Assembly (NCBI GenBank): GCA_019057385.1
Contig: JAHQJS010000004.1
Location: 1,199,068 to 1,263,067 of the forward strand
Length of the DNA: 64,000 nt
Reading direction: 5' to 3'
Source of the DNA: Candidatus Borrarchaeum weybense
GTDB taxonomy: Archaea; Asgardarchaeota; Sifarchaeia; Borrarchaeales; Borrarchaeaceae
Shown here: piece after piece, positions 1,448 to 18,580 of the stretch
How the letters are laid out: each line of letters begins with the position of its first letter
Position numbering within the stretch: the first letter of the stretch is position 1
Made by a program: the position numbers and the translations under genes
Notes under the pieces: generated by a model
Told to the model about the DNA's origin: nothing
The model's database searches: none
Seen by the model: the letters and a program-made list of their open reading frames with translations, nothing else

Positions 1448-2431
1448 TTAAAATAATTTTTTGGCAGCTGCGACTATTTTGTCTTTATTTGGAAGCATGA
1501 GTTTAATCAGAGGAGGAGCTACAGGTTCAGGGATTTGAAGAGTAGCGACACGCATTATGGGACCGTCTAGATAATCGAATGCATCTTCTGCGACGATTGC
1601 AGCAATTTCAGCAGCAACTCCGCATGCTAAATGATTATTATCCACAACTACCAACTTATTTGTCTTCTTAACGGAGTTTATAATGGTTTCTTTATCAAGT
1701 GGAACTAATGTACGCGGATCTATGACTTCAACGTTGATTCCTTCCTTATCTTCTAGTTGTTCGGCTGCTTCAAGTGCCTCACGCACTAAGTTACAGATTG
1801 CCACAATAGTCAGATCAGTTCCTTCCCTCTTGACATCAGCTTCACCAAAGGGGATCAGATACTCTTCTTCTGGCACTGGACCTTTAATTAAATAGAGTTT
1901 TGCTGTCTCAAAAAACATAACGGATGCCTTGTCTCTTATAGCCGTTTTTAATAATCCCTTAGCATCGTACGGAGTTGATGGTACAACAACTTTTAGTCCT
2001 GGAGTCTGTACAAACCACGGTATAAGAGTCTGAGCATGATCAGCTCCCGAACCGCGACCTTGTATAATTGCTGTTCTAATCGTCAAAGGTACGGTTAACT
2101 GTCCTCCAGTCATATAATGTAGTTTTGCCATATGATTTGTGATTTGGTTCATGGCACAGGGTAGAAAATCAGGATACATTATCTCTACAATCGGATTTAA
2201 CCCGGTTATCGCTGCCCCAATACCTGCTCCTACAAATCCATCTTCACTAATTGGGGTATCACGGACCCTTTCTGGGCCAAATTCATCCAATAGTCCTTTT
2301 GACACGCCATAAACGCCACCAAGAAATCCTACATCTTCACCCATAAGAATTACGGTCGTATCTCTCCTCATTTCTTCACGTATGGCTTCATTAAGTGCTT
2401 CAGCCATATTAATTTCTCTTTGTGTATTCAT
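1448..2431 (-). CDS. 2-oxoacid dehydrogenase E1 component, beta subunit
   Basis: This is the beta chain of the heterotetrameric TPP-dependent E1 decarboxylase. It binds the pyrimidine half of TPP and shapes the acyl-acceptor site. The 327 residues match family length and show the N-terminal pattern INMAEALNEAIREEM and the GEDVGFLGGVYGV segment. The central SEDGFVGAGIGAAITGL region and the C-terminal transketolase-like domain (VIDPRTLVPLDKETI) follow. It lies between E1 alpha (13 nt gap upstream) and E2, so the operon order is E1a-E1b-E2, as in acetoin and pyruvate dehydrogenase operons. The start is the ATG at 2431, just after the upstream stop. Confidence 0.94.
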   Translation of the reverse strand: MNTQREINMAEALNEAIREEMRRDTTVILMGEDVGFLGGVYGVSKGLLDEFGPERVRDTPISEDGFVGAGIGAAITGLNPIVEIMYPDFLPCAMNQITNHMAKLHYMTGGQLTVPLTIRTAIIQGRGSGADHAQTLIPWFVQTPGLKVVVPSTPYDAKGLLKTAIRDKASVMFFETAKLYLIKGPVPEEEYLIPFGEADVKREGTDLTIVAICNLVREALEAAEQLEDKEGINVEVIDPRTLVPLDKETIINSVKKTNKLVVVDNNHLACGVAAEIAAIVAEDAFDYLDGPIMRVATLQIPEPVAPPLIKLMLPNKDKIVAAAKKLF

Positions 2432-2444
2432 TTCCTTTCCCTCC

Positions 2445-3419
2445 CTAGAAAACGAATCTCTCTAATTCTTCTGGACCTGGAAATTCGCTGTCAATAGCAA
2501 ATTTTTCCGCCTCAGCAACTTCCGCCTCAACGTCTTTCTCAATGTTAGTAAGTTGCTCTTCGCTCGCGATAGTACATTCAAGAAGATACTTTCTATGCCG
2601 TGCTATTGGATCTCTTTTCTTCCATTCTTCAACTTCTTCTTTCGTTCTATATGCGGTTCCTGGATCACCATAATAATGACCGTGATGCCTGTAAGTTTTA
2701 GCTTCTATTAATGTGGGTCCCTCACCCTTTCGTGCCCGCTCAACTGCAGTACGTGCAGTTTTGTATACTTCTATTACATCGTTTCCGTCTATAGCAAAGC
2801 CTGGTATATTATAAGCTTTTGCTCGAACAGCTATGTCTTTTACAGATGTCGATCGATTAACGCTTACAGAAATCGCGTATAGATTATTTTCACAAACGAA
2901 AACTACTGGAAGTTTCCATATTGACGCAAGATTGAGACTTTCGTGAAAGCCGCCTGTATTAGCTGCCCCATCTCCAAAGAAACTTGCAATAACTTGATTT
3001 GTTTTTCTCAATGTAGCTGATAGCCCAGCACCAACTGCTAATGGCGCACCAGCACCAACTATGGATGATGAATATAACATTCCTTCAGAGGGCCACGATA
3101 AATGCATTGTCCCTCCTCTACCTCTACAGCATCCTGTTACCTTGCCTAAGATTTCAGCAGCTGTCACATTCATTGGTGCGCCTTTCGCAATAGTATGTGC
3201 ATGTGCCCGATGAGTGCTTGTTACTAAATCTTCTTTTATTAGATTTGCGCACACACCAACTGCTACAGCTTCTTGACCAGTAGAAAGGTGTAGTGTTCCA
3301 GGACATAACCCTCTAGCATAGAATTCGCCCATCTTATCATCAAAAAGTCTCACTCTTACCATTTCTCGATATAATTCAACCAATTTTTCATTGCTTATGG
3401 CTTCTTCTAATTCTATCAC
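2445..3419 (-). CDS. 2-oxoacid dehydrogenase E1 component, alpha subunit
   Basis: This is the alpha chain of E1. It carries the TPP diphosphate-binding motif GDGAANTG...ENN (about residues 149-179) and performs the decarboxylation step with the beta chain. The 324-residue length, the RGRGGTMHLS segment and the C-terminal RHHGHYYGDP phosphorylation-loop-like motif are typical. It is the first gene of the minus-strand operon, and a roughly 100-nt AT-rich spacer separates it from the divergent DUF296 gene, so the promoter should lie in 3420-3540. An aerobic-type E1-E2 complex in an archaeon may work catabolically or may be a relic. Activity in archaea has been shown only in a few cases. Confidence 0.94.
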   Translation of the reverse strand: MIELEEAISNEKLVELYREMVRVRLFDDKMGEFYARGLCPGTLHLSTGQEAVAVGVCANLIKEDLVTSTHRAHAHTIAKGAPMNVTAAEILGKVTGCCRGRGGTMHLSWPSEGMLYSSSIVGAGAPLAVGAGLSATLRKTNQVIASFFGDGAANTGGFHESLNLASIWKLPVVFVCENNLYAISVSVNRSTSVKDIAVRAKAYNIPGFAIDGNDVIEVYKTARTAVERARKGEGPTLIEAKTYRHHGHYYGDPGTAYRTKEEVEEWKKRDPIARHRKYLLECTIASEEQLTNIEKDVEAEVAEAEKFAIDSEFPGPEELERFVF

Positions 3420-3543
3420 CCTCCGACAGAAGTTTAATATACACTAAAAAATGTAATGATATAATAGTATGTAAATGGTTTATAAGAATTGATATTTTGG
3501 ATAAAAAAATGTAACTTACATGAATCTCCGGGAGGGAATCTGC

Positions 3544-4074
3544 ATGAGCGTGAAAGAAGTTCCTTTTAAAGAGGCTTCTGGCGAACTCAGCAGTACAATC
3601 CGTTACCAAGCCGCCGCTGGTAAACTCGGTAAAGTAATTATTGGTCGACTATTACCAGGCACTGATGTTATTGAAGGAATAGAGAAAATATGCAAAGATT
3701 ATAGTATTAAATCAGCCTTTGTAAGCCTATCAATAGGAAGTTTGCAAAAAGCAACATTTATGTTGGCAATGGCGAAAGAGGGTACCAAGTTAGGAATCGT
3801 TTATACAGAACCTATTGAAGTACCAGGACCTATTGAGTTTCTCAGTGGTCTTGGAGTAGTTTGTGAAGGAGGAACAGAAGGAGAATTGGAAACTCATTTT
3901 CATGCGACATTTAGTAACGAGAAAAAAGAAGTCTACGGCGGTCACCTTGTAAAAGGTAAAAACCCAACTCTAGCTACAATTGATCTTTCAATAATTGAAG
4001 TCCTGGGTGTTAGATTAGGTAGAAAATTTGATGAGGAAACTGGGTTCGTCCTTATTTCTCCAGAATCAATATAA
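3544..4074 (+). CDS. PPC/DUF296 domain protein
   Basis: This is a single-domain protein of the PPC/PCC (DUF296) family, small trimeric alpha/beta proteins that in plants are fused to AT-hooks. The prokaryotic role is not settled. The visible core includes GRLLPGTDVIEGIEKI, a central strand set and the His cluster ETHFHATF...GGHLVKG, which forms the metal site of the family. I place the start at the ATG at 3544 rather than 3520 because a GGAGGG ribosome-binding site (3531-3536) sits 7 nt before it, giving about 176 residues. It is divergent from E1 alpha and convergent with the helicase gene, so it looks monocistronic. Confidence 0.85.
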   Translation: MSVKEVPFKEASGELSSTIRYQAAAGKLGKVIIGRLLPGTDVIEGIEKICKDYSIKSAFVSLSIGSLQKATFMLAMAKEGTKLGIVYTEPIEVPGPIEFLSGLGVVCEGGTEGELETHFHATFSNEKKEVYGGHLVKGKNPTLATIDLSIIEVLGVRLGRKFDEETGFVLISPESI

Positions 4075-4105
4075 TGAAAATTATATCCGCTAGGTTGAAA
4101 AAGAA

Positions 4106-6400
4106 TTACAATAACCGAAGAAGTTCTTCCAGTATTAATAATGCGCCTTTTTTATCAAGAGGTTCATTGTTATTGCCACACTTAGGAGACATAATACATG
4201 CAGGACACCCATCCTCACATTCACAATCACTTATCATTTCATATGTAGTCTGCAAGAATCCTGTATCTAATAACTTATAGATTTTTTCAGCAATGCCAAT
4301 CCCAAATTCGTAACCGTCGTAAATGAAAATAGCAGCTTTCTTTTCATCTTCGTGATATGGACTAGAGACACCACCTATGTCCCATCTGTCGCATAACGCG
4401 TACATGGGTGCCATTGCAATCATGGCATGCTCACAAGCATGAATAGCCCCCTCAAAATCATACCCACTCTCGGCTACTTTCTGTTGAATCCATTCTGGAA
4501 GTGTGAAATAAACGGCAACTGTCTGAAACTTCAATGGAGGTAGATCAATAGGTCGCCTCCCGATTATGACATCATAACGCTTTATCACATAAGAATGATA
4601 GAATTCAGTGACTTCTACATCAGCAACTTTCAATTCGAAGCCTAAACTAATTTCCTTTTCTTCTGTGATTTTCAGTATTTGAATATCTGTTTCTTCTAAC
4701 GGATTTGTATGAAGTTCAACATCTTCTTTTCTAACCGACGCAATCATTTTTTCGAGATCAAGGTTCTCTACGACATAGGTTTCTCCCTGATGAAGTAAGA
4801 CTGCACCTTTATAGGCCTCTCTATAAGCCTTTGGTAAATCCATTGTTTCAAGCAATTTACCATTATAATGAACGTAAACCATCTTATTTGAGATATTGTT
4901 TATGTTAACTACCTCAGTAGCACGCATCTTACCTGAATAGACATATCCCCTCGGAGTCTGCGTGATCAATTTGTGACGTTGCAAAGCATCTAATGATTCT
5001 TCAAATTTCAAACCGAAATACTTGTCATCTTCTAATTTGGCAATTGGAAGTTCAGCGGAAGCGCACATTAAATGACCAAGCACAACATATGGATTTTTTA
5101 AATCAATTACAGCATGTTCTGGTGAACTTCCAAAAAATTTTTCTGGATGTTTCATAAAGTATTGATCAAGAGGGTTTGAAAACGGTACTAAAATTGCCAA
5201 TGAATCATCCATTCCTCTTCCTGACCGTCCGGCTTGTTGCCATGTTGAAATTATAGTTCCTGGATACCCAGAGATAATAACGGCATCAAGCGAACCAACG
5301 TCGATTCCAACTTCGAGAGCAGTTGTTGAAGTCACACCTAGTAATTCCTTATTTTTCAAGCGTTGCTCAATATCTCTTCTTTCCTCTGGAAGGTATCCTG
5401 CCCGATAAGGACTTATTCGATCTGCTAAGAACTCACTAGCTAGATCTTCAGATAGAGCCTCTCTTGTCCACCTTGCAATTAATTCAGCCATTTGACGGGA
5501 AATTGTAAAGCACAGAGTCTGGATACTGCTTTTAACACTTTCAGTAAGTAAAAACATAGTTTCTTGGTGAGTTGAGCGTCTTATGCATTTAGCCTCATCG
5601 CTATAGGGAGGATTCCAAAAAACAAAGAACTTTCTTCCTCGGGATGATCCGTCTTCTGAAATAACTACACATTTTTTCCCGGTAAGATTAAAAGCTTGTT
5701 CTTCAGGATTCGCTATAGTAGCGCTAGAGAGAATAAACTGTGGAGATGAGCCATAATAATCACATATCCGAAGAAGTCTTCGAAATAGGAAGGCGCAATT
5801 AGCACCGAAAACACCTCGATAAGTATGAGCCTCATCAATCACGATAAATTTCAATCCCTGAAAGAATTTCTTCCATTTTGAATGCCAAGGAAGATATTGA
5901 TGTATCGCATATGGATTGCTTAAGATCATCCTTGATTTTTGTCTAATATTGGGACGTGCATGGGATGGTGTATCACCATCGTAAACACTTGCTTTTGTTT
6001 CTATGCTAGTTTCACTTTCAAATTGTGATAAGATCATTAGTTGATCATTAGAAAGAGCTTTTGTTGGATACAAAAATAATGCTGTAGAATTGGCATTTTT
6101 CCAAAGTTCTTCAAAGATTGATAGAGTATATGCTAAGGTTTTTCCGCTAGCTGTTGGTGTCGTAATTATTATATTATTTCCTCTTCGAATTTCATTTATC
6201 GCTTCTGCTTGGTGAATGTAAAGTTGCATGCTTCTTTTGTTGAGAAAACTTTGAAGAGGCAAGCCGAGTGGAAAATCGAGTGATCCATACTTTGGTTCTT
6301 TTTTTGGAAGTGTTTCTGTATGTACAATTTGTCCTTCATAATCTGAGGTTTCCTTTAATCCTCTAAGAAATATCTCAATTGAACTCATCATAAATTTCAC
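4106..6400 (-). CDS. DEAD/DEAH-box helicase with C-terminal DUF1998 (Hrq1/MrfA type)
   Basis: This is a superfamily-2 DNA helicase of the Hrq1/MrfA (YprA) group, which acts in DNA repair in bacteria and yeast. Seen in order: a Q-like segment (YIHQAEAI), the Walker A motif TPTASGKT (K87), motif II IDEAH, motif III SSATIANP, and a second RecA domain with TTALEVGID and QQAGRSGR. The C-terminal DUF1998 part holds a four-cysteine metal cluster (CECEDGCPAC...KCG), a hallmark of this subgroup. The 764 residues are near full length. The start is uncertain because ATG codons at 6400, 6391 and 6388 are all possible and none has a good ribosome-binding site. No MrfB-like exonuclease gene is adjacent. 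Confidence 0.9.
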   Translation of the reverse strand: MKFMMSSIEIFLRGLKETSDYEGQIVHTETLPKKEPKYGSLDFPLGLPLQSFLNKRSMQLYIHQAEAINEIRRGNNIIITTPTASGKTLAYTLSIFEELWKNANSTALFLYPTKALSNDQLMILSQFESETSIETKASVYDGDTPSHARPNIRQKSRMILSNPYAIHQYLPWHSKWKKFFQGLKFIVIDEAHTYRGVFGANCAFLFRRLLRICDYYGSSPQFILSSATIANPEEQAFNLTGKKCVVISEDGSSRGRKFFVFWNPPYSDEAKCIRRSTHQETMFLLTESVKSSIQTLCFTISRQMAELIARWTREALSEDLASEFLADRISPYRAGYLPEERRDIEQRLKNKELLGVTSTTALEVGIDVGSLDAVIISGYPGTIISTWQQAGRSGRGMDDSLAILVPFSNPLDQYFMKHPEKFFGSSPEHAVIDLKNPYVVLGHLMCASAELPIAKLEDDKYFGLKFEESLDALQRHKLITQTPRGYVYSGKMRATEVVNINNISNKMVYVHYNGKLLETMDLPKAYREAYKGAVLLHQGETYVVENLDLEKMIASVRKEDVELHTNPLEETDIQILKITEEKEISLGFELKVADVEVTEFYHSYVIKRYDVIIGRRPIDLPPLKFQTVAVYFTLPEWIQQKVAESGYDFEGAIHACEHAMIAMAPMYALCDRWDIGGVSSPYHEDEKKAAIFIYDGYEFGIGIAEKIYKLLDTGFLQTTYEMISDCECEDGCPACIMSPKCGNNNEPLDKKGALLILEELLRLL

Positions 6401-6746
6401 AATAAATTGTTTGAAGAATAATTCTTGATTTCATAAAAAAGTCTATTGATTTAAGGAACTATTTTTTTCCACAATTGTTTTCTATTTACTGTTTATTGTT
6501 ATTAAATTAACCATGGCTATAATATAGGCGCATTAAGAATGTCTCAAATCATATAAGGACAAAATCGCTTAATTTTCTCATCTTTCCTTTTTTTCTTATC
6601 ATTTTTTACTTATTTTTGATATTAGGGTCGTTCTTAAGATACATTCTGTCCGCTAGTTCTGCGAAATACTGTCTGCATAAAATGTAAAAATGAGTATTAC
6701 GTGTTTCTCTTAAAGATTTGCAGCCCTTGACAAAATTTAAAAATTA
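6401..6746. other. AT-rich divergent intergenic region
   Basis: This 346-nt spacer separates the helicase gene (leftward) from the sensor kinase gene (rightward), so it should hold both promoters. I see no coding potential and no convincing repeat, only A/T tracts. Confidence 0.5.
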
Positions 6747-9700
6747 TTGCCTAATTGGGTGAAAAACAAGTTGAACGATCACGATAAAACAAAAGAGCAA
6801 CTTATCGAAGAATTAATAGAAATGCGTCAAATTGCTGCTAATTTGAAGACACTTGAAAATATGTATAAACAAACTGAAGAAAAACTTCGAGATTCGGAAG
6901 AGAAATATCATATAATGGTCGAGAATGCCAATGAACCTATCTTTGTAGCACAGGATGGGATAATTAAATTCGCAAATCAGAAGGCTATTGAAGTATTTGG
7001 GTATCAATTAGATGAATTGACTTCAAGACCTTTTGTGGATTTTATTCATCCAGATGATCGAGAGATTGTTATTGAACGTCATATAAAAAGACTCAAAGGT
7101 GCTGAAATTCCCCATGTCTACCCTTTCAGAATTATAAACAAAAACGGAAATGAAATATGGGCCGAAATCAACGTAGTTCTTATCAAATGGGAGGAAAGAC
7201 CTGCTACTTTATTTTCAATAAGAGACATAACCGAACGTAAACATACAGAGGAATTATTGAAAAAATCGGAAGAAAAATACGCAACTATCGTAGAACAGGG
7301 AAACGACGGGATCGCTATTGCTCAGTATGGGATGGTAAAATTTGTAAACAAAAAGTTGCTTGAGCTTTTTGGCTATTCGTTAGAAGAAACACTTGAAAAA
7401 CCATTTCTTGATTTTATTGCTCCAGAATATCGAAAAATAGTTATGGAACAATATAAAAATAGGCTCGCTGGAGAGAATTTTCAAACTAGATACGAATTAG
7501 CAATCAATACAAAAGATGGTAGGAAGATACCCGTTGAAATAAATGCCAGTTTGATTGAATATGAGGGGAGAACCGCAGATTTAGCGATAATACGAGACAT
7601 TAGCGAGCGTAAGCGGTCAGAAAAATCACTAAGAGAATCTGAAGAGAAATGCCGTAAGTTGATCGAGCATTCCCTATATGGAGTATTAATTATACAAGAC
7701 CAGGGTATCGTATTCGCTAATCCAGCATTCGCTAAGATTCTTGGCTATACAATGGAGGAATTGTTAGCTTTTTCGCCAGAAGAAATGAGGATGCTTGTAC
7801 ATTCAGAGGATCGAGCACTCGTTGAAGTGAGGATACGAGATCGCTTTATGGGGGAATCGGTGCCTCAACGCTACTCTTTTCGTATGATCAGGAAGGATGG
7901 CTCAACAAGGTGGCTAGAATCATCTACAAATCTTATCAATTATCTTGGAAGACCTGCTGTACAGGGTATTTTGGTAGATATTACCGAACGCAAACAGGCA
8001 GAAGAATTACTTAGAGACTCCGAGGAAAAATTCAGGCAGCTTGCAGAGCAGTCACCAAACATGATTTTCATTAATAAGAAGAGTAGGATAGTATACGCCA
8101 ATAAGAAATGTGAAGAAGTTTTGGGCTATACACGGGAGGAATTCTATTCACCTGGTTTTGATTTCCTTTGTTTGATTGCCCCAGACTATAGAAACTTGAT
8201 ACTTTCAAGGTTACATACACATATGGATGGCGATGAGATCGCGCCCTATGACTATGCTCTTGTCACCAAAGATGGTAAGAGAATTGAGGCAATAATCACT
8301 AGCAAATTAATAGAATATGATGGAGAGAGGGCGATCCTTGGGATAGTAACTGACATCACTGATCGAAAACGGACTGAGAAAGCGCTGGAGCAGCGGGTGC
8401 GAGAACTGGATCTGCTGGATAAGGCGCGCTCATCCCTAGCTAAAGGTCTAGATCTACCGAAGGTCATCCGTACCGTTGTTGAGGGCATTGTCGAGACGTT
8501 CGGCTATACTCTGGTCAGCCTCTACTTGCGTAAAGGTGATATATTGATACTTCAACATCAGATGGGTTACCACAAAGAAATCTCCGAAATTCCGATAACA
8601 AAGGGGGTCTCTGGCCGCGTTGTTCGTACCGCAGAACCTGTGTTACTCGAAGATGTTCGCACCGATCCCGAGTTCCTAGGGGCTATTGAAAATATCGCCT
8701 CTGAGATCTGCGTTCCGTTGTTCGACCAAAATGAGGTAGTGGGCACTTTAAACGTTGAGAGCAAAGCGGGTAAACACCTCACGGAAGCTGACTTGCGCCT
8801 TATGACAGCTCTGGGCGAATACGTTAGTGTTGCCATCGGAAAAGCCAGACTTTACGATGCAGCGCAACGGGAAATCGCCGAGCGCAAGAAAATAGAGAGT
8901 CAGTTAATTGAATCAGAAAAAAAATATCGTATGTTAATTGATCAGTCGCTCCAAGGTATTACAATTTTACAGGACGGCTTTATTAAGTTCGCTAATCCAG
9001 CATTCGCAGAGATCAGCGGATATACGATTGAGGAACTACTGAATTTTTCACCCGAAGACGCGAGGGCACTTGTGCACTCAGAGGATCGGGAAATTGTGCA
9101 AGAATGGATAAGAGATCGATTTATGGGCAAGCCAAGTTCTTTGCGTTACGATTTTCGAATAACCAGAAAAGATGGGTCGGTGAGCTGGCTGGACGCATCT
9201 GTTACTCTTATTGAATATCAAGGAAAACTCGCTAATCAGGTCACCTTTTTAGATATTACAAAGCGTAAACATGCTGAAGAAGAAATGAGGAAATATACTG
9301 AAAACTTGGAAAAACTCGTTGAAGAGAGGACATCGGAACTCATGGAGTCAGAGGCCCGTTATCGGGGGTTATATGAGTCCTCCATAGATGGCATCGCCTT
9401 CACAAATATGGAGCAAAAGATAGTGGACTGTAATCAGGCCTTCGCGGATATGCTCGGATACACTAAGGAGAAACTGTATCAATTAAGCCTATGGGACATC
9501 ACGCCCAGTAAGTGGATTGATATGAACAAAAAAATCTTTTCTAAAGAAGTGTTTGCGAAGGGTTATTCCGATGAGTACGTAAAAGAATACATCAAGAAGA
9601 ACGGAACAATCGTCCTAATCTCTGCAAGGTCATGGGTCATCAAGGATAAGGAGGGCACACCCACCGGATCATGGGGCATCGTTCGTGATATCACAGAACG

Positions 9701-10427
9701 GAAGAAAGTTGAACAAATGCAGTCACAATTCATCAATGTAGCTGCACACGAACTTCGAACTCCATTAAGCGCATTAAAAGCCCACGTAGATCTCCTTAAG
9801 ATAAAAATTAGTCGAGGTTTTTGGTCACTCCCTGGAGAAGTAAATGAGAAGATAGACATTATAGCACGGAATGCAGGCAGACTTGCTCTTCTTATCAATA
9901 ATCTTCTTGATTTTACTCGCCTTGAAGCCGGCACGATAAGAATGAATATTGAATTAAGCTCACTTGAAAATTTGGCAATTGAAATTGTAAAAGAAGTCAA
10001 TCCATTAGCTAAAAAGCATAAGCATGAGATTAAAATCATAACTCTAAAGTCATTGCCGTTGATTTATTTAGATAAAGACAAGATAAATGTGGTTTTTAAT
10101 AACTTGCTTTCTAACGCGATCAAATATACGCCTAAAGGTGGTAAAATTAACGTCTTGCTAACGGAACTAGATAACAATATCCATATCATGGTGAAAGATA
10201 ACGGTATAGGTATCGCGGAAGAAGATCTTGAAAGTATCTTTCTACCTTTTCACGTAGCTGATGTGAATACTACTAACAGACTTCAAATACAACCTGAGTT
10301 CGAACGAACAGGATTAGGACTGGCTATAACGAAAGAATACGTTAAAATGCATGGCGGCTCAATATGGGTGGAAAGTCAAGTCGGAGAGGGAAGTACTTTC
10401 CATGTGATCCTTCCCAAGAGAAGATAG
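6747..10427 (+). CDS. multi-PAS/GAF sensor histidine kinase
   Basis: This very large (1226 aa) kinase lacks membrane segments, so it is probably cytoplasmic. Approximate order: coiled coil 10-50, PAS1 50-165, PAS2 170-290, PAS3 295-415, PAS4 420-545, GAF 555-705, PAS5 715-840, coiled coil, PAS6 865-985, HisKA with the H-box HELRTPLSALKAH (H1001), and HATPase (N-box NNLLSNAIKYT, G1 DNGIGI, G2 GLGLAI). PAS3 and PAS5 are closely similar in sequence, indicating internal duplication. The GAF segment (about 8380-8890) is clearly richer in G+C than the flanking PAS modules. The start is TTG at 6747, or the in-frame GTG at 6759 or TTG at 6771. No response-regulator gene is adjacent, so the partner is unknown. 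Confidence 0.92.
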   Translation: MPNWVKNKLNDHDKTKEQLIEELIEMRQIAANLKTLENMYKQTEEKLRDSEEKYHIMVENANEPIFVAQDGIIKFANQKAIEVFGYQLDELTSRPFVDFIHPDDREIVIERHIKRLKGAEIPHVYPFRIINKNGNEIWAEINVVLIKWEERPATLFSIRDITERKHTEELLKKSEEKYATIVEQGNDGIAIAQYGMVKFVNKKLLELFGYSLEETLEKPFLDFIAPEYRKIVMEQYKNRLAGENFQTRYELAINTKDGRKIPVEINASLIEYEGRTADLAIIRDISERKRSEKSLRESEEKCRKLIEHSLYGVLIIQDQGIVFANPAFAKILGYTMEELLAFSPEEMRMLVHSEDRALVEVRIRDRFMGESVPQRYSFRMIRKDGSTRWLESSTNLINYLGRPAVQGILVDITERKQAEELLRDSEEKFRQLAEQSPNMIFINKKSRIVYANKKCEEVLGYTREEFYSPGFDFLCLIAPDYRNLILSRLHTHMDGDEIAPYDYALVTKDGKRIEAIITSKLIEYDGERAILGIVTDITDRKRTEKALEQRVRELDLLDKARSSLAKGLDLPKVIRTVVEGIVETFGYTLVSLYLRKGDILILQHQMGYHKEISEIPITKGVSGRVVRTAEPVLLEDVRTDPEFLGAIENIASEICVPLFDQNEVVGTLNVESKAGKHLTEADLRLMTALGEYVSVAIGKARLYDAAQREIAERKKIESQLIESEKKYRMLIDQSLQGITILQDGFIKFANPAFAEISGYTIEELLNFSPEDARALVHSEDREIVQEWIRDRFMGKPSSLRYDFRITRKDGSVSWLDASVTLIEYQGKLANQVTFLDITKRKHAEEEMRKYTENLEKLVEERTSELMESEARYRGLYESSIDGIAFTNMEQKIVDCNQAFADMLGYTKEKLYQLSLWDITPSKWIDMNKKIFSKEVFAKGYSDEYVKEYIKKNGTIVLISARSWVIKDKEGTPTGSWGIVRDITERKKVEQMQSQFINVAAHELRTPLSALKAHVDLLKIKISRGFWSLPGEVNEKIDIIARNAGRLALLINNLLDFTRLEAGTIRMNIELSSLENLAIEIVKEVNPLAKKHKHEIKIITLKSLPLIYLDKDKINVVFNNLLSNAIKYTPKGGKINVLLTELDNNIHIMVKDNGIGIAEEDLESIFLPFHVADVNTTNRLQIQPEFERTGLGLAITKEYVKMHGGSIWVESQVGEGSTFHVILPKRR

Positions 10428-10560
10428 AATTAGGATGAAGTATTAAATTTATAATAAACATTGAATTGCGTGAAAGTGTCCTTTCATGCAATTATATCCA
10501 CATTAGTTTTTTTAACTGTTCAAACATCACTAAAATAGCGAGTCGTATGAGGCTTCTGAA

Positions 10561-11052
10561 GTGAACACATTAGTCATAGCAACATGCGTTAAAGAGAAAC
10601 GAAAGGGAAGTCATAAAGCTAAAGATCTCTATATTTCGGATCTATTCAAAAAGATGAGAAAATATGTTGAAACGTATAATTATGACTGGAGAATTATTTC
10701 TGCAAAACATGGATTGATTAATCCAGAAAAAGTGATTGATTCCTATGAGGATGAATCACTAGATCAATTTAAATTACTTCAAGGAAAACAAACTGAAAAC
10801 TTAAGGGCAAAAAAAGAAACATTGAGAAATATAATTGACGAACAGTTGAGACCAGTTCTAACAAACTATGAGCGAATAATTTTAATGTGCGGAAAGCAGT
10901 ACAGAGACGTTATATTACCATTACTTGAGGAAAAAGAGGTTATAAACTATTTTAAGGGAACAAAAGGAATAGGTGAAATTAAGCAAAAACTCAGTAGTGA
11001 TATCGCCAAGAAAAAACAGCTCCCTCTCGATGAATATCTCACCGCCGCATAA
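10561..11052 (+). CDS. DUF6884 family protein
   Basis: The 163-residue protein begins MNTLVIATCVKEKRKGSHKA and has the DUF6884 signature: an N-terminal cysteine strand, a KAxDLYxSxLFxK helix and WRIISAKHGLINPEKVIDSY. Its biochemical role is unknown to me. Members are often found in phages and in genomes with 7-deazaguanine transglycosylases. It starts at GTG with a GAGG about 8 nt upstream. It lies 73 nt before the DpdA-like gene on the same strand, so the two are probably co-transcribed. The ISAKHGL motif is reminiscent of YaaA-like folds, which is a weak resemblance only. Confidence 0.75.
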   Translation: MNTLVIATCVKEKRKGSHKAKDLYISDLFKKMRKYVETYNYDWRIISAKHGLINPEKVIDSYEDESLDQFKLLQGKQTENLRAKKETLRNIIDEQLRPVLTNYERIILMCGKQYRDVILPLLEEKEVINYFKGTKGIGEIKQKLSSDIAKKKQLPLDEYLTAA

Positions 11053-11125
11053 GTTAAAAAGTTAAGAGGATAACAGTACACCATATTTTTCGTTTTTAAA
11101 AAATCTATGCGGAGTGGTGTTGTAA

Positions 11126-12343
11126 ATGAAATTCTATTTACCATTCTGGTGGCCTGATGGGATCAATACGCATTTTGACCCCTTCTTAGAAACCGTTCCG
11201 CATAAAGAAAAAGTTCGAATTTGGAATATCTATAATCCTCCACCCTTAGATGGTATCCTTGTTTCGAGAGTAAATGTAGAATCAAAACCTCCCGAAAATG
11301 ATGACATTCATACAGCTTTAGACTTCAAAGGATCCATAATGGGCGATTGTGGGGCGTTTTCCTATATCGACGAAGCAGAACCGCCCTACGATCCTATAGA
11401 CACTCTAGAATTTTATGAAAAATACGGATTTGATATTGGGGTGACCGTTGATCACCTCATTGTTCCTAAATACGATAATGAGAAAGAATATCGACAAGAA
11501 CTGACCATCAAAAACGCAAAAAAGATGTTTGATGTGTGGAAAAACAAAGAAACTAAATTAAAACTACTTGGTGTTGTCCAGGGATGGAATGCTAACTCTT
11601 ATGCAACTGCAGCTCTTGAACTCGCTGAATATGGTTTTGATTACATTGCACTAGGAGGTTTGGTACGCGAACCGACAGAAAACATAAAGAAAATCCTAGA
11701 GATGGTTCATGCCATACTTCAAACAAACTCTCAAGAAAAAGGCGTACAAACAAAAATTCATTTGTTTGGCATTGCACGAGAGTCACTTTTCGCTACGATG
11801 AAACATACAGGAATACACTCTTTCGATAGTGCAGGAAGTCTTCGAAATGCTTGGTTGAGCGCCAAAAAAAATTATTATTTGGATAATGTGCCCTATTGTG
11901 CCATTCGCATCCCCAGGCCAAAAGATCTACGAGGTAAAAAAAAGAAATTTGTAGAAGAGCACGAAATTTCGAAAGACCTTTTGGTTAAATTGGAAAAAAA
12001 AGCGTTGGCAAACATCCGAGCGTTTCAAAAGCAAGAAATTACTCTTGATGAAGTACTGACAGCATTAAAAGAATATACCTCTGTTTTCACCCCTCCTAAG
12101 CAAACAGATCAAATCATCAACGAGTATCAACGGACACTCAATGCTAGACCATGGGAGTTGTGTGACTGCTCACTTTGTAAAAAGATAGGGATTGACATAA
12201 TTTTCTTCAGAATGCACGAAAGGAATATGCGACGCGGGTTTCATAATGTCTACGACTTTTATAATCACTTCAAAAAGTGGGAACAAAACTATTTACCATC
12301 TAAGAAAAACGAAAAGGAAAACCAACAATTGAAGTTAGTTTAG
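11126..12343 (+). CDS. dpdA: DpdA-like 7-deazaguanine transglycosylase (TGT superfamily)
   Basis: This is a TIM-barrel base-exchange enzyme related to tRNA-guanine transglycosylase. DpdA proteins swap guanine in DNA for a 7-deazaguanine such as preQ0. The base-recognition loop is GDCGAFSYI, followed by GVVQGWN, IALGGLV and the SFDSAGSLRNAW segment, whose Asp is the likely nucleophile. The C-terminal zinc site and tail CDCSLCKKIGI...RNMRRGFHN are characteristic of DpdA rather than of tRNA TGT. The PUA domain of archaeal ArcTGT is absent. At 405 residues the length fits DpdA. It starts at ATG with GGAGTGGTG upstream. The substrate (DNA or a tRNA) is inferred from family similarity only. Confidence 0.8.
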   Translation: MKFYLPFWWPDGINTHFDPFLETVPHKEKVRIWNIYNPPPLDGILVSRVNVESKPPENDDIHTALDFKGSIMGDCGAFSYIDEAEPPYDPIDTLEFYEKYGFDIGVTVDHLIVPKYDNEKEYRQELTIKNAKKMFDVWKNKETKLKLLGVVQGWNANSYATAALELAEYGFDYIALGGLVREPTENIKKILEMVHAILQTNSQEKGVQTKIHLFGIARESLFATMKHTGIHSFDSAGSLRNAWLSAKKNYYLDNVPYCAIRIPRPKDLRGKKKKFVEEHEISKDLLVKLEKKALANIRAFQKQEITLDEVLTALKEYTSVFTPPKQTDQIINEYQRTLNARPWELCDCSLCKKIGIDIIFFRMHERNMRRGFHNVYDFYNHFKKWEQNYLPSKKNEKENQQLKLV

Positions 12344-12370
12344 ACTATTTGTAACAAGCACTAAATTCAA

Positions 12371-13579
12371 TCATATCGCTAAAGAGTCACTCATTAAGTG
12401 CGGAATATTCCCACAGGGACATTGTTTTGTATCCTTTAGTTCTATCCACTTCTTTGTATCACTAGCGTAACGAGGTTTTAGTTTAAAAATCAATACTAAT
12501 TCTTGCCCGGTTGATAAAAGTTGTTTTCCTTCTATCTTAACTACTACCTTGTTCTTTTTTACATCAACTGTCCATTCGAATGGCTCAGCAATCTCGCTAT
12601 ATGATTTGGTTAGATTAATCTCGCCTATTTTTCGCTTATGATCCATTAGAATTTCGCATGATACTGCGCCATTGAATTTGGAAAATTCATAACTAAGTTT
12701 AAGCGCGTCTAAACGCCTAAGTTTTAGCCAATAGTGAAAACATGCTGAAAACTTGTTTTTATTCAGTTTACAAACGTACATTCTCTTTTTATCTTGAATA
12801 TTGATCGTATATGACTCACCTAGTCGTAAGTTGTTATAGTAACTCTTAATAATTTCCGGTGAGACGGTAGCATTTGCGATCGTTAAATCCTTCAATTTAT
12901 GGGTGAAGACATTTGGCTCGTAGGGAAGAGACTCATCAAATTCATTTGTAATCTCAACTTCATAAGGGTCATTAGAAGAAAACAAAGTAACATAAGTGAT
13001 GAAAGGAGCCCTATTTGATAATTTTAAATATTTTCTTCGCTCAAAATAGTCCATTAACCCATCACGTCGAATTTTCCATGTAATATCCTTTGTAAGTAGC
13101 CAATGTATTTGCGTATGATTTGTAAAGAATTCAAAGAGGTCGGAATAACGAGATATCTCATTTTCAGATGCTACTTTACTCTGAAAATCGACAGGAATAT
13201 CCTTTGTAAAATATGAGGAGGGTAGGCTTCGTCCAAAGTACAAAATTCGTTTCTTTATCGTCCAAAAATCAGCAAGAGCCTTTTTTCTCTTCTTCTTTTC
13301 CTTATTGATAAGTTCTAATTGTTCCAGTGCATTTAATGCCCTTCTTACATTAGCTAATGGTTCTTGTAGCTGATCTGCCAAATCATGTGTAAAGAACCCT
13401 TTTTTGTTTTCGAGAAGTCGAGCATATGCTTTGAGGGCAGTATCATTTTTCCAGCCCATTACCTTTCCGAATGCTTCAATTTTATCTTTATTATTCATCA
13501 TATCCTCTGAAAGGATAAATTCGCTTGCAGTAGATTTCGATTCTGAGTTTTTGAGTTTCTTTTTAGGCAATAGACTCAC
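12371..13579 (-). CDS. winged-helix protein of unknown function
   Basis: I do not recognise this 402-residue protein as a named family. Residues 35-120 look like a winged helix (FTHDLADQLQEPLANVRRAL followed by LEQLELINKEKKKRKKAL). The remainder is a mixed alpha/beta region with many aromatic and basic residues. The C-terminus has a small Cys/His cluster, CPCGNIPH, that may bind zinc. There are no membrane segments. The likely start is GTG at 13579, with no clear ribosome-binding site. The gene converges on the DpdA-like gene with only 27 nt between stops, and is divergent from queT. The context suggests a regulator or effector of the modification island, which is inference. Confidence 0.6.
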   Translation of the reverse strand: MSLLPKKKLKNSESKSTASEFILSEDMMNNKDKIEAFGKVMGWKNDTALKAYARLLENKKGFFTHDLADQLQEPLANVRRALNALEQLELINKEKKKRKKALADFWTIKKRILYFGRSLPSSYFTKDIPVDFQSKVASENEISRYSDLFEFFTNHTQIHWLLTKDITWKIRRDGLMDYFERRKYLKLSNRAPFITYVTLFSSNDPYEVEITNEFDESLPYEPNVFTHKLKDLTIANATVSPEIIKSYYNNLRLGESYTINIQDKKRMYVCKLNKNKFSACFHYWLKLRRLDALKLSYEFSKFNGAVSCEILMDHKRKIGEINLTKSYSEIAEPFEWTVDVKKNKVVVKIEGKQLLSTGQELVLIFKLKPRYASDTKKWIELKDTKQCPCGNIPHLMSDSLAI

Positions 13580-13935
13580 AGTTCAGTTTTTTTACAATTA
13601 TCTCATTCGTCCTATAAAATTTTTTGTAACAGCTTTTTTATTTCATCAAAACTTCAAACCTTAATCAATACACACAAGAAATAAGCATCCAATATCAAAA
13701 TAAAACACTTAAACAAGTTTTATCCTGGTTATTTTTGCTCCTCAGCGGATTTTTAGTCTTTATATCGATTTAACATTCAAGTACAACTGTGAACCTGTTA
13801 CAATTTCTGTCATTGGAAATCCCTAAATTCGCTGATTGATAAAAAGAGTATAGAGCATTAAATTCCTGTTTTGAGTACATTTCCGACAAAAACTAGTATA
13901 TTTGAAAATAAGAGGCATATCTAAGGAGGAATTCC
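13580..13935. other. divergent intergenic region upstream of queT
   Basis: This 356-nt AT-rich spacer must hold promoters for both the winged-helix gene and queT. A strong AAGGAGG ribosome-binding site precedes the queT ATG. I looked for a preQ1-type pseudoknot riboswitch and saw none. Confidence 0.5.
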
Positions 13936-14493
13936 ATGGAAGAAATGGATGCAAAGCACATGAACGAACAAGATAGTAAGATGAAGATCTTCGCGGATAG
14001 TAAGGAAGCTGCGTTAACCGCGATAATGGCAGCGTTATATGCTGTTCTTACATGGGTTGTAGCCCCGATTGCTTATGGTCCAATACAATTTCGAGTGAGT
14101 GAAGGATTAAAGGGATCTGTAATTAAAAAGAAGGTTCTTATTATTAGCTTTATTATTGGGAATGCGTTATCCAATATATTTAGCCCCCAGGCAGGTATTT
14201 GGGAATTTCTCTGGATGCCCTTTTGGAACCTCATCGGTGGTGGATCATGTTATCTCATTGCCAATAAACTTACTTACAACTTTAATTACAAAGATGGAGA
14301 ATACAACCTATTCTATTTTGTTGGTGCTTTCGTGTATGCGTTCTGCATAGCATTCGCTGTAGCATTCATGCTCGCAATTCTCTTTGCCCTTCCCTTTTGG
14401 ATCCTACTTCCAGTACTTCTTCTACCAGAAGCCATACTGATCGTCGGTCTTACACCTGTAATGACTCGTATTATGAATGAAATAGAGTGGTAA
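13936..14493 (+). CDS. queT: QueT family queuosine-precursor transporter (ECF S component)
   Basis: The 185-residue membrane protein has a soluble, charged N-terminus of about 28 residues. The QueT signature follows: ALTAIMAALYAVLTWVVAP, then YGPIQFRVSEGLK, and IGNALSNIFSPQAG with a conserved W-F-L-W segment. QueT proteins are substrate-binding S components of energy-coupling-factor transporters, thought to import preQ0, preQ1 or queuine. No energizing ECF A/T genes are present in this window. The start is ATG with AAGGAGG upstream. Its position next to a DpdA-like transglycosylase fits a role in supplying a 7-deazaguanine base. It could equally supply tRNA modification. Confidence 0.85.
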   Translation: MEEMDAKHMNEQDSKMKIFADSKEAALTAIMAALYAVLTWVVAPIAYGPIQFRVSEGLKGSVIKKKVLIISFIIGNALSNIFSPQAGIWEFLWMPFWNLIGGGSCYLIANKLTYNFNYKDGEYNLFYFVGAFVYAFCIAFAVAFMLAILFALPFWILLPVLLLPEAILIVGLTPVMTRIMNEIEW

Positions 14494-14543
14494 GACCATA
14501 ACCACTTTTTCCTTACTGTTTTTCTATACTTATGGGATTAGGT

Positions 14544-14792
14544 TTACTTGAAAAGCCAATCTTCTCTTTTCTTTTTCATATGAGTCTCCAAGACAGTCTT
14601 TGTATGAATGTCTCCTACTGTTTCAAAAACCATGTGTGACTGAAGGGGTTTTTTTCTAGCTGGTTCAAATCCCTGAACTGGGCACAGTTCTATTGGTGTT
14701 TTAGCTAGAACTTTATGTTCAAAACAATCGCCTTTGACTTCATCTACTGGTTTGTAGTATTTACAATCCCTACAAATGAACTCTTCACGCAT
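14544..14792 (-). CDS. small four-cysteine protein
   Basis: The 82-residue protein has four cysteines spaced C-x2-C-x12-C-x13-C (C7, C10, C23, C37) and a charged C-terminus. The pattern resembles small metal- or Fe-S-binding subunits such as those of some glycyl-radical enzymes. I do not assign a function. Its ATG (14792-14790) lies inside the left copy of a 13-bp direct repeat that borders a structured element. Only AAGGGAA remains just upstream, while the fuller ribosome-binding sequence (GGAGAGGAAGGGAA on the minus strand) now lies beyond the element at about 15129-15143. Expression may therefore be altered. Confidence 0.65.
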   Translation of the reverse strand: MREEFICRDCKYYKPVDEVKGDCFEHKVLAKTPIELCPVQGFEPARKKPLQSHMVFETVGDIHTKTVLETHMKKKREDWLFK

Positions 14793-15134
14793 TTCCCTTA
14801 GGGAAGCGCCTGCCCTTTAGGGTGGGGAAGAATTGAGGGTGTTTTTCACTTTTATTAGGGCCTCTCCACTTTTAAATACGTGTTCTGAGATAGAGGTACG
14901 TGGTCTAAAGGCACACCTCTCATAGAAGTGGAAATGGTTAATGACCTCAAGGATGAGGAGCAGTAAACTGGTATAGCCCGACTCTATATGAGGATTACTG
15001 GGCTGGGCTGCGGTAAACACGCCCATGTGTTAGCGTGCGATGAGGTTGAAACTCTTTTGCAAAGAAGAGGACTGAGACCAAGCACAGCTAAAAGCCTCAC
15101 TGCTTTAGCGTGAGGTAGTTTACGCATTTCCCTT
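14787..15134. mobile_element. non-autonomous palindromic element A (IS200/IS605-like ends)
   Basis: A non-coding, structured insert of about 320 bp is bounded by exact 13-bp direct repeats ACGCATTTCCCTT (14787-14799 and 15122-15134). Terminal hairpins lie at 14809-14826 (CCTGCCC/GGGTGGG) and 15095-15115 (CCTCAC..GC/GC..GTGAGG, followed by TAGTTTAC). The second closely resembles right ends of tnpB-carrying IS605-family elements. Between them are several short stems (GAGGT/ACCTC, AGCCC/GGGCT, AACAC/GTGTT, CTCTT/AAGAG), as expected for an omega-RNA-like transcript. IS605 elements do not normally duplicate their target, so the 13-bp repeats are unusual. Confidence 0.6.
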
Positions 15135-15322
15135 CCTCTCCTTTTATCAAATGAAATCGGAATCTTTCACAACGTCATTATATCGATTTATTCATGCAAG
15201 ATTAGTTGTTATTGTATCACTATAATATATTTTCATGATATAAAATATTTTGTATGAGTTTTTTGACGAAAACTATTAATCCTTAAAACAATTAAGATAA
15301 TGTTCTAAAATGGTCTTAGGAG

Positions 15323-16369
15323 GTGAATCTATTAGTAGGATCTTACAGGCTGACTAAAGCAGTAAGGGTTCATGGTTGATCCTGTAAGTTGCCCCAAGCA
15401 GACCTAGAAAAGTTACTAGAGAGCATAGAAGTCTATCTACCCGAAGGTTCAGTTAAAGAGAAAATGTTAGCAGGAGCAGGAGATGACGCCGCAGTAATAC
15501 AGATTAGAGATGATCTAGCACTTATTGAAACTGTAGATTTTTTCACACCAAATATTGACGAGCCAATGATTCAAGGAGAAATCTCTGCATGTAATACAAC
15601 TAATGACATTTATGCGATGGGCGCTGTAGACATTCTTAGTGTACTAGTTGTTATGGGTGCACCAACAAATATGCCTTTTGAAATCTCTCGAGATCTTTTA
15701 AAGGGATTTAAAAATTTCTGTGAACGTCTAGGAACACACATTGTCGGCGGACATACTATAATAAATCCATGGCCTTTCATTGGTGGTTGCGCACTAGGTT
15801 TGGCGCACCCAAATAGCGTTGTCTATAATCGCGGTGCAAAAGTTGGAGACATTCTTCTCTTAACAAAACCTTTAGGAACGCAACCTGCGATGGCAGCATA
15901 TCGTTTACTCAAAGAAGAACAACAATTAATTGATTTATCTGAATATTTACCCACTAAAGTAATTGATCGTGCAATACAAAAAGCAATTGAGATAATGACA
16001 ACAACAAACAGGCCAATAGCAAAAATTATGCAGGAAATCAAGGTTAATGCCGCAACGGATGTAACCGGCTTTGGATTGACTGGGCATGCACGTGAAGTAG
16101 CAACACAAAGCAAGGTAAATATTGTGATTGATACTATGCCGATCATAAAAGGAACTAATATCCTTTCTGATCAACTAGGCTATTCATTAATGGAGGGTAC
16201 ATCTGCAGAGACTGCTGGAGGAATGTTACTCTCGTTATCACGTGATAATGTTGATCTATTCAAAGAAAAACTAATAGAAAGAGGAATAAAATCCTTTGAA
16301 ATAGGGCATGTTAAGGAGGGCAGCGGACAGGTGAATATTGTGCCTGATATAAGAATTATTGAAGTTTAG
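15323..16369 (+). CDS. selD: selenophosphate synthetase SelD, selenocysteine-containing (UGA at codon 19)
   Basis: This enzyme makes selenophosphate from selenide and ATP, the selenium donor for Sec-tRNA. A standard caller starts at TTG 15389, but the same frame continues upstream through TGA (15377-15379) and reads YRLTKAVRVHG-U-SCKLPQ. That aligns with the GUGCK / GCGCK active-site motif of SelD, so the TGA sits exactly at the catalytic Cys/Sec position. An in-frame GTG at 15323 overlaps an AGGAGG motif; upstream the frame closes at TAG 15317-15319. Other conserved parts are GAGDDAAVI, ETVDFFTP, ACNTTNDIYAMGA and GGHTI. A SECIS-like hairpin follows the stop. The protein is selenocysteine-dependent unless reading starts after the TGA, which would delete the active site. 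Confidence 0.92.
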
Positions 16370-16443
16370 ACGGCGCGTAATGAAAAAGACAGAAACCGCA
16401 AGGAGGGTCTTTAGAGCTTTCCACCAATGCAGGTGGCACCGTC
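16369..16443 (+). promoter_or_regulatory. SECIS-like element in the selD 3' UTR
   Basis: A lower stem GACGGCGC (16369-16376) pairs with GCACCGTC (16436-16443) with one mismatch, and a side hairpin CCACC/GGTGG lies within. Inside is TGAA (16381-16384) opposite AGAG (16413-16416), a possible kink-turn with tandem G-A pairs. Above it is the perfect stem AAAGAC/GTCTTT, then a 5' bulge GAAA opposite a single A, and CC-GCAA-GG at the tip. The GAAA/A bulge under a GC cap is the archaeal SECIS pattern, and the TGAN/NGAN quartet is the eukaryotic one. Position directly after a UGA-containing selD supports the call. Confidence 0.75.
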
Positions 16444-16463
16444 AATATCCTCATATCTAAATT

Positions 16464-17372
16464 CTATTTCTCTCCATAGTCAACATTGCCAAATGCTTTG
16501 TTGTATTCATTGCTGAGTAACTCGTCGACCACATGCGTATACTTCTGCGTCGTAGATAGATTTGAATGCCCCAGCTGTTGTTGAATAACCCTTACATCCA
16601 TACCTCTGGATAAAGCAGTCGTAGCAAAGAAATGTCGTAGTTTATGACAACTGATAGCGGGATTTATACCTGCCAGATCTCGATATTTTGCAACTATATG
16701 TTGAATGGTACGAATGGCAATTCTTTTCCCATTCCTACTTATAAATAATGCATCATTTTCTTCGATCTTAGGTCGGATTTTTAAGTAATCGTTGATTAGA
16801 TCAAGCGCTGTAGTGCTAATTTTAACGTATCTGTGTTTTCCTCCCTTTGAAACAAGCCTTAGCGTTTCCTTTTCAAAATTGATATCTTTTAAACTCAAGT
16901 TATGGATGCCTTTTACACGAGCTCCAGTATAGATAAAAACAGCTAAAATCGCTAAATCACGAGTCTTATAATTTGAATTTCCTTCTTTGACAGTCTCAAT
17001 AAGTTTATGTATTTCTTTTTCCGTGGGAAAAATTGGCAATGTATGATCTAGTTTTGGTGTTTTGATTTCACCCATTGGACTTGTCTTAAGGTATTTCTCT
17101 CTTAACAAAATGTCATAGAATGTTCTGAGAGTCGAAACCTTTCGAGCTAAAGTGGTTTTTTTGTATCCTTTATCGCGTTTTAAATGAACTAAGAAGGCTC
17201 TAATATCTCTTGTTGTGGCATTTATAAGGGGTTTTTTAGTGAACTTGGAGAACAACGTCAGATCGTGAAGATACTGATTAAGGGAGGAACTTGCAAGCCC
17301 TTCTTCAACTTCTTTGATCACACGGAATTGATCGATTAATTCTTCATCAGATAAAACTTTTGTTTCCGACAT
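16464..17372 (-). CDS. tyrosine recombinase (XerC/XerD/XerA-like integrase)
   Basis: The 302-residue protein has an N-terminal SAM-like core-binding domain (about 20-105) and a catalytic domain with all six active-site positions. These are Arg in TGARVKGIHNL, Lys in GGKHRYV, His and Arg in CHKLRHFFAT, His in LGHSNLSTT and the Tyr nucleophile in QKYTHV. Size and motifs match chromosomal Xer recombinases such as archaeal XerA, which resolve chromosome dimers. No attachment sites or phage genes lie nearby, so an integrase of a lost element is the less likely alternative. It is convergent with selD, and the SECIS lies between their stops. Confidence 0.88.
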   Translation of the reverse strand: MSETKVLSDEELIDQFRVIKEVEEGLASSSLNQYLHDLTLFSKFTKKPLINATTRDIRAFLVHLKRDKGYKKTTLARKVSTLRTFYDILLREKYLKTSPMGEIKTPKLDHTLPIFPTEKEIHKLIETVKEGNSNYKTRDLAILAVFIYTGARVKGIHNLSLKDINFEKETLRLVSKGGKHRYVKISTTALDLINDYLKIRPKIEENDALFISRNGKRIAIRTIQHIVAKYRDLAGINPAISCHKLRHFFATTALSRGMDVRVIQQQLGHSNLSTTQKYTHVVDELLSNEYNKAFGNVDYGEK

Positions 17373-17545
17373 ATTCGAAACTTCCGCAAGAACGGTATTT
17401 AGTTATTCTAATTTTGATTCATAGATTTAAAGCTTTATATTTTTAAGATTTCTGAGATTTTTATCCGCTTTTGTAGAGGATAAACATTAATATCGGGATG
17501 TTTTATTTCAAATGATCTAAAAGGTTTAGTAACATCTTGATAAGA

Positions 17546-17875
17546 TCATTTTAGAATCCTTTTCCATTTTGGTAAGTCTCTTTGTCTGTATTTTTCAATT
17601 ACCTTTATTAAGACCGCTTCGAGATCAATATTTCTCTTATTTGCCAAAGATATCAGTACAAATAGTAGATCACCAATTTCTAATTCTAATTCCGCTTCAA
17701 AATTGATGTGCGAATCTTCTTTTGCTATAGGACGAAATCCTTTTAGGCGCTGCAAAACGTGTGCAATTTCACCTAATTCTTCTATCATTCGAGCTAAGAT
17801 AATGGGATCTTCCCAGTATCCTCCTATTTCATTGATAAATTCATCAACGATTTTTTGAAGTTCTCGTAATTCCAA
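17546..17875 (-). CDS. MazG-like nucleotide pyrophosphohydrolase
   Basis: This 109-residue all-alpha NTP pyrophosphatase is of the MazG superfamily, which removes aberrant or excess NTPs. The metal-binding signature is visible as MIEELGEIAHVL (EExxE) and ELEIGDLLFVLISLANK (ExxD). The start is TTG at 17875 with GAGGG a short distance upstream. It stands alone between the recombinase gene (same strand, 173 nt away) and the divergent ferredoxin-TerB gene. The nucleotide substrate cannot be deduced from sequence. Confidence 0.85.
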   Translation of the reverse strand: MELRELQKIVDEFINEIGGYWEDPIILARMIEELGEIAHVLQRLKGFRPIAKEDSHINFEAELELEIGDLLFVLISLANKRNIDLEAVLIKVIEKYRQRDLPKWKRILK

Positions 17876-18091
17876 TGGTCTTCCCTCATCAGTGATATAT
17901 TGAAAAAATGTAATTTTTTAATCTTATTTTGTAAGAATTTATCTAGTAACAAAACTCCTTTTCTGAGTTCCTCTATCAGATCTCAAGGGATGGATATGAA
18001 CGCAATCAGATCTCTTACTGAAGTAATTCTCACAAAATATAAAAATAATGATTGTGGTGCTTTTACTAAGTAACGAAGCGAAGTGATATCC

Positions 18092-18580
18092 ATGAGGATT
18101 GAGTTACCAGGTAAAAACTGCGAAAACTGCGGTAAATGCGTTATTCTATGCCCAGATAATCTTTATGTCGTTGACCTGACCACAGAAAAAGCGGTAATAG
18201 CTGATGATACCGTTTTTAATGAATTAGAAGATCGTATAAGTGGCGCCTTACTTACATTAATTAAGGAGCAAATACATAGTGATGGAAAAGTTACCGATGA
18301 TGAAAAAGCGCTCCTAGGTGTTATCACACGTAGTTTCTCAACGTTTAGTAATATGAGAAAAGTCGCGGAGCCAATTCTATTTTCAGCAAAAAAATATCTC
18401 TTCAAAAAAATCTGGGAAGAAGCAATAAAGGACGATGTCATTAGCGAAGATGAGCAAGCAATACTTGACATCATGGTTGATAAATTAAAAATCGCCCCAA
18501 ATGAAAAAGAACAATTCATTTCGGAAGTTGAAGCCGAAGCGGCAGCTATTAAGAAGTTAAAGCAAAAATTGGCAAAGTAG
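18092..18580 (+). CDS. ferredoxin-motif / TerB-like fusion protein
   Basis: The protein starts with a single ferredoxin-type cluster motif, CENCGKCVILCP, enough for one [4Fe-4S] cluster. It then continues into an all-helical TerB-like (tellurite-resistance B, DUF533-related) module. That module has two similar halves, each with an acidic D/E cluster (SDGKVTDDEKALL and VISEDEQAIL) where TerB binds metal. I chose ATG 18092 over GTG 18083 because the AAGTGAT before it can act as a ribosome-binding site and the shorter form begins MRIELPGK. The function is unknown. The combination suggests a redox- or metal-responsive sensor or partner, which is inference. Confidence 0.7.
   Translation: MRIELPGKNCENCGKCVILCPDNLYVVDLTTEKAVIADDTVFNELEDRISGALLTLIKEQIHSDGKVTDDEKALLGVITRSFSTFSNMRKVAEPILFSAKKYLFKKIWEEAIKDDVISEDEQAILDIMVDKLKIAPNEKEQFISEVEAEAAAIKKLKQKLAK

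Follow-up and report, generated by a model that had tools for sequence, protein, structure and literature searches.

The locus and its conservation

The window (the whole stretch of 64,000 nucleotides analysed) is part of a 1.3-Mb contig in a 4.18-Mb assembly from the Candidatus Sifarchaeum/Borrarchaeum lineage of the Asgard archaea, and includes four neighbouring genes, followed by a small fifth, with the following predicted products:

10561..11052, + strand: DUF6884 protein, 163 aa, with a YaaA/DUF328-like fold (PF21818, fold model)
11126..12343, + strand: DpdA, predicted DNA guanine transglycosylase, 405 aa (NF041059, tree, residues)
12371..13579, - strand: 402-aa protein with an N-terminal winged-helix region, putative regulator (weak wHTH matches)
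13936..14493, + strand: QueT transporter of the ECF S-component type, 185 aa, putative base importer (PF06177)
14544-14792, - strand: 82-aa cysteine-containing protein without a family match (adjoins queT in both relatives too)

The four principal open reading frames were found where an earlier sequence-only reading had located them, the signature motifs that it had singled out were present in the translation of 11126-12343, and the identities that it had proposed for the DpdA-like transglycosylase, the DUF6884 protein and QueT were borne out by family matches over the respective cut-offs.

Comparison with the nearest named relatives by DpdA identity, C. Borrarchaeum yapensis (90%) and C. Sifarchaeum marinoarchaea (78%), confirmed that the four genes are kept in the same order in both, with protein identities of 77-93%, so that the conserved neighbourhood on which the earlier proposal had been made to depend does exist. 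The order of genes in Borrarchaeum is identical across window positions 1448 to 18580. The four genes and the following small gene also stand in unchanged order in Sifarchaeum, where one additional gene precedes an AIR-synthase-like gene. Values of dN/dS (NG86) fell between 0.09 and 0.21 for all four genes in every pair, and no shift in GC content was apparent at the locus. The conserved order, low dN/dS and unshifted GC indicate a locus that is old in its lineage and under purifying selection rather than a fresh mobile island: the gene set looks stably (vertically) kept, and the term "island" first applied to it is misleading, since its order is conserved together with that of its flanks.

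Assignment of the transglycosylase

The product of 11126-12343 scored 330.3 bits against the DpdA equivalog model NF041059 (cut-off 200), stayed at 60.9 and 38.8 bits on the two tRNA equivalog models (cut-offs 350 and 306.75), matched the TGT superfamily PF01702 at 6e-12, and had as its top solved relative PDB 7ui4, a DNA-guanine transglycosylase (4e-53). In a tree of 36 sequences, which included TGTs and 27 DpdAs of Asgard, bacterial, haloarchaeal and phage origin, all 27 DpdAs, the window protein among them, were separated from the TGTs by a split with support of 95/95, the one exception being a long-branch Paenibacillus TGT (TGT2) placed on the DpdA side; the grouping with tRNA-acting TGTs that would have told against the assignment was thus not observed. 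An Asgard-DpdA profile returned about 300 bits or more for DpdAs, the haloarchaeal proteins being matched in separate segments, and less than 80 for every TGT. Two catalytic aspartates (D74 and D234) and the Cys3His zinc ligands (C346, C348, C351 and H373) were invariant in 27/27 DpdAs, and many DpdA-specific positions of the alignment were missing from the TGTs. By these sequence comparisons the protein is a true DpdA, with DNA its predicted substrate by family membership.

Its nearest non-Asgard counterpart found was a cyanobacterial DpdA (39% identity), and a peptide-pattern search of IMG/VR returned no close DpdA relatives. Across a comparison set of 228 Asgard genomes, in which related genomes were counted as independent, an intact dpdA was present in 15. 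Three further short matches were rejected as intact genes, those of G004 (L068:3330-4703) and G217 (L069:9469-9897) being remnant-like and that of G088 broken by N runs.

QueT and the supply of base

The 13936-14493 protein matched PF06177 (QueT) with 74.8 bits against a cut-off of 33.7 (1e-20). QueC, found in 96/228 Asgards, was absent at E<=1e-30 from the window's own genome, apart from a viral contig, and from the Borrarchaeum relative, both assemblies being scored 100% complete; in a search that took in QueC and QueD, the own assembly yielded deazaguanine-synthesis genes on the viral contig alone. With QueC confined to that contig, import of the base is plausible, as the sequence-only reading had supposed when it preferred uptake to synthesis. 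Wider support came from the distribution of the two genes, stand-alone QueC being present in 5/50 Asgards with QueT as against 71/178 of those without it (p 3.5e-5, uncorrected for relatedness), a mutual avoidance that fits QueT as a salvage importer.

The four genes had also been expected to co-occur as a set. DUF6884 does track dpdA across the Asgards (see below), but QueT does not, and was rejected as a general Asgard partner of DpdA, being present in 3/15 genomes with DpdA and 47/213 without. QueT may therefore also, or mainly, feed tRNA archaeosine. There is an appreciable possibility that it serves tRNA archaeosine salvage only, its siting near dpdA being incidental and DpdA merely drawing on the pool: QueT is carried by 50/228 Asgards, unlinked to DpdA and anticorrelated with stand-alone QueC. 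Set against this are the retention of the QueT-dpdA neighbourhood in 3/3 own-genus genomes that have dpdA, the broken dpdA adjoining a QueT gene in G004, from another Asgard family, and the Fusobacterium phage phiFN37, in which a transglycosylase, DUF6884 and a queuosine-precursor transporter are encoded by neighbouring genes and which is an independent instance of the trio.

DUF6884 as a proposed partner of DpdA

The 10561-11052 protein matched PF21818 (DUF6884) at 7e-24, over the cut-off, and its predicted structure (pLDDT 88) had as its best PDB fold match YaaA (5caj: probability 1.00, E 3e-3, TM 0.44). Since DpdC, which hydrolyses dPreQ0 to dADG, is described as a protein of DUF328, the family of YaaA (PMC12839542), the fold match suggests a DpdC-like role for DUF6884; the one canonical DpdC examined gave a partial match to the DUF6884 domain and, as annotated, had no C-x3-K motif. 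Residues invariant in 37 DUF6884 sequences were C9, K13, A20, Y24, S47-A48-K49, Y62, G111 and Y114.

Linkage to dpdA was consistent in the Asgards, a cluster gene of the DUF6884/YaaA-like type adjoining dpdA or lying within a few kb of it at 15/15 intact loci, in a relative position that varied between upstream, downstream and convergent. As judged by the Pfam model, DUF6884 was present in 13/15 genomes with DpdA and 47/213 without (p 7e-7, uncorrected for relatedness). The two are also fused, the DUF6884 domain being N-terminal in the proteins of cyanobacteria and Paenibacillus and C-terminal in those of haloarchaeal plasmids, and comparison of free DUF6884 with the DpdA-fused domain by hhalign (98.6%, E 1e-15) confirmed that they are homologous. 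Among viruses, DUF6884 was fused to a TGT-like domain on two contigs (L108 and L111), a phage-type transglycosylase gene was present at 13/80 viral DUF6884 loci, and in the archaeal virus HRTV-29 a DUF6884 gene annotated YaaA immediately precedes the annotated dpdA. The HRTV-29 source paper names both genes and regards YaaA as a peroxide stress protein (PMC8651126), and an earlier published mention of the DpdA-DUF6884 link may exist. Many plasmids and phages bear DUF6884 with no annotated DpdA near, so its function need not be bound to DpdA.

From the fold match and this pattern of association we infer that DUF6884 acts as a YaaA/DpdC-type partner of DpdA, and the window gene is probably co-transcribed with dpdA. 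An unlikely alternative is that it yields a final base other than the amide dADG, for instance by an ArcS-like addition of lysine towards archaeosine in DNA. The C-x3-K motif is similar to the PC-x3-KPY segment of ArcS, and one Asgard family has a DUF5591 (ArcS-core) gene immediately after dpdA; however, homology between DUF6884 and the ArcS domain (DUF5591) was rejected on profile comparison (hhalign probability 1.5%, not significant), and the fold match obtained was to YaaA, of the DpdC family.

The winged-helix gene

Weak matches of the 12371-13579 protein to winged-helix models (Lrs14/Sta1) covered approximately residues 45-105 with E about 5e-5, below cut-off; a PDB sequence search gave nothing significant, a fold model built with three close sequences reached a pLDDT of 34, and no relatives were found in IMG/VR. 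Homologues were present in 4/228 Asgard genomes, confined to the own genus and G086, whose copy is 41% identical. The window gene and queT are divergently oriented, as are the G086 gene and a DUF5591 (ArcS-core) gene in a genome in which no dpdA was found. An upstream word, TTACAAAAAAT, common to the window gene and its G086 homologue was discarded as not significant, 151/2000 shuffles having reached it.

The sequence-only reading had left open whether this protein was a restriction or a regulatory partner. The former suggestion was not supported, as no nuclease match was obtained, the gene is present in so few genomes, and its sole distant homologue adjoins a DUF5591 gene without dpdA; a regulator of deazaguanine genes is the likely and simplest reading of its position and weak wHTH matches.

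Comparison with known systems

The locus shares a DpdA homologue with the bacterial Dpd system (dpdA-K, Salmonella Montevideo type), and resembles it further in that the YaaA-type (putatively DpdC-like) gene stands directly 5' of dpdA on the same strand, a place equivalent to that occupied by a DUF6884/YaaA-like gene upstream of dpdA on an Enterobacter plasmid. Unlike the bacterial system, the window locus is archaeal and chromosomal, has conserved flanks, is linked to QueT, and has no adjacent DpdB, preQ0-synthesis genes or DpdD-K. DpdB (DndB/DGQHR, PF14072) was absent from the own genome and from every Asgard genome with dpdA, and no restriction genes DpdD-K were present among the neighbouring ORFs searched at the window. 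On its gene content, the locus is not a canonical Dpd system.

The phiFN37 cassette and HRTV-29 are like the window in the adjacency of transglycosylase and DUF6884, and phiFN37 also in its transporter, known by annotation as a queuosine precursor transporter where the window gene has the identity of QueT; they differ in being viral, with phage-type transglycosylases distantly related to the window DpdA. The cyanobacterial, Paenibacillus and haloarchaeal fusions combine the same two functions as the window pair, but in one protein, and in the plasmid clusters genes for preQ0 synthesis, helicases or a second TGT lie alongside. TGT-containing BRC (BREX-related capture) systems provide an archaeal/bacterial HerA defence setting comparable to that of the G123 locus described below, and are without DpdC-type genes (PMC12839542). 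In the window, by contrast, the genes tested matched neither HerA nor PglZ.

That the locus might belong, as one half, to a restriction-modification or defence system, with the 12371-13579 protein or another neighbour as its effector, is improbable. Bacterial Dpd systems do restrict unmodified DNA, DUF6884 is present in PADLOC as a candidate defence family, and G123 groups DUF6884 and DpdA with NurA-like, HerA and N6-methylase-type genes. At the window, however, no nuclease or DpdD-K-type gene adjoins dpdA among the neighbouring ORFs searched, no Asgard genome with dpdA has DndB/DpdB, and the winged-helix protein is devoid of an enzymatic match and missing from dpdA loci outside its own genus. 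Because no DpdB or restriction genes are adjacent, a standing host mark, or a shield against incoming restriction, appears likelier than a part in a local restriction system. The weakest explanation, that the 11126-12343 enzyme acts on tRNA in the archaeosine/queuosine manner and the locus belongs to tRNA metabolism, is very unlikely: it appeals to the superfamily shared with TGT (PF01702), to the service of tRNA pathways by bacterial QueT (PMC11130926) and to the wide spread of archaeosine genes across archaea, but the genome already encodes a distinct TgtA, which includes a DUF5591 domain, and the window protein is below the tRNA equivalog cut-offs, clusters with DpdAs and bears DpdA-specific residues.

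Proposed function of the locus

On balance, then, the locus is probably a minimal chromosomal import-insert-convert module for 7-deazaguanine modification of DNA in an Asgard archaeon. QueT would bring in a 7-deazaguanine base, most likely preQ0, since the host does not appear to make it. DpdA would then exchange chosen guanines in DNA for the imported base by a TGT-type covalent mechanism, with D234 as the putative nucleophile and D74 as the putative general acid. The DUF6884 protein, either before or after insertion, would convert the preQ0 nitrile most likely into the amide (dADG), a step proposed from its family and from the repeated fusion to DpdA. The winged-helix protein, to judge from its position and faint family matches, would most likely control uptake or use of the base.

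A broader proposal is advanced tentatively: that some Asgards keep in their own DNA a vertically inherited chromosomal 7-deazaguanine mark, made from salvaged base and without a local restriction partner, and that DUF6884 is a general partner of DpdA across archaea, bacteria and viruses. Such a standing mark in an Asgard would be protective or epigenetic.

Phages and bacterial defence islands are the main settings in which 7-deazaguanine marking of DNA is known to date, and the papers found on Asgards with 7-deazaguanine appeared, by title and abstract, not to be about host genes. On the best reading, this DpdA module, fed by import, without DpdB and sited on an Asgard chromosome, represents a new form of Dpd-type system. 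If this is correct, 7-deazaguanine marking would reach the chromosomes of relatives of the eukaryotes, with DpdA working in a cellular chromosome without DpdB; the Pfam family DUF6884 would gain a biochemical hypothesis spanning viruses, plasmids, bacteria and archaea; and the three-gene import-insert-convert unit would be small enough for transfer to E. coli and analysis by LC-MS.

Other loci encoding transglycosylases and DUF6884

In G123, a distant Asgard, genes for DUF6884, NurA-like, HerA, DpdA and N6-methylase/mad2-like proteins are clustered (L067:4953-14114) in what has the look of a defence locus, a grouping which indicates that the DpdA-DUF6884 pair can be drawn into such loci. In five genomes of one Asgard family (L056-L060), dpdA is accompanied by two YaaA-like genes and has a DUF5591 gene directly 3', next to ATP-synthase-type genes; a route to archaeosine in DNA is possible there. 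The window's own genome has a second locus (L014:9159-12820; G000 C4, about 734-738 kb) encoding three proteins, of which one is short and TGT-like (297 aa), one has 428 aa and the third, of 487 aa, carries a DUF6884-like domain at its C-terminus. Three haloarchaeal plasmids (L084, L187 and L191) encode DpdAs of ~965 aa with two insertions; the C-terminal DUF6884 was matched in that of L084, the one scanned, and preQ0-synthesis genes are annotated alongside dpdA in 2/3.

The T4-like proteins encoded on the viral contig of the own assembly (C1 of G000, 179,096 bp, L203-L212) include the portal, tail sheath, baseplate wedge, prohead protease and DNA polymerase. Near the polymerase gene stand one for a phage-type transglycosylase and another that is QueC-like (L204:6547-8581), with a PTPS (QueD-type) gene ~15 kb from that region. 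By gene content it is a T4-like tailed-virus contig with 7-deazaguanine genes of its own, tied to the archaeon by binning only, and it also carries 11 tRNA genes and a gene for a Tad3-like domain protein.
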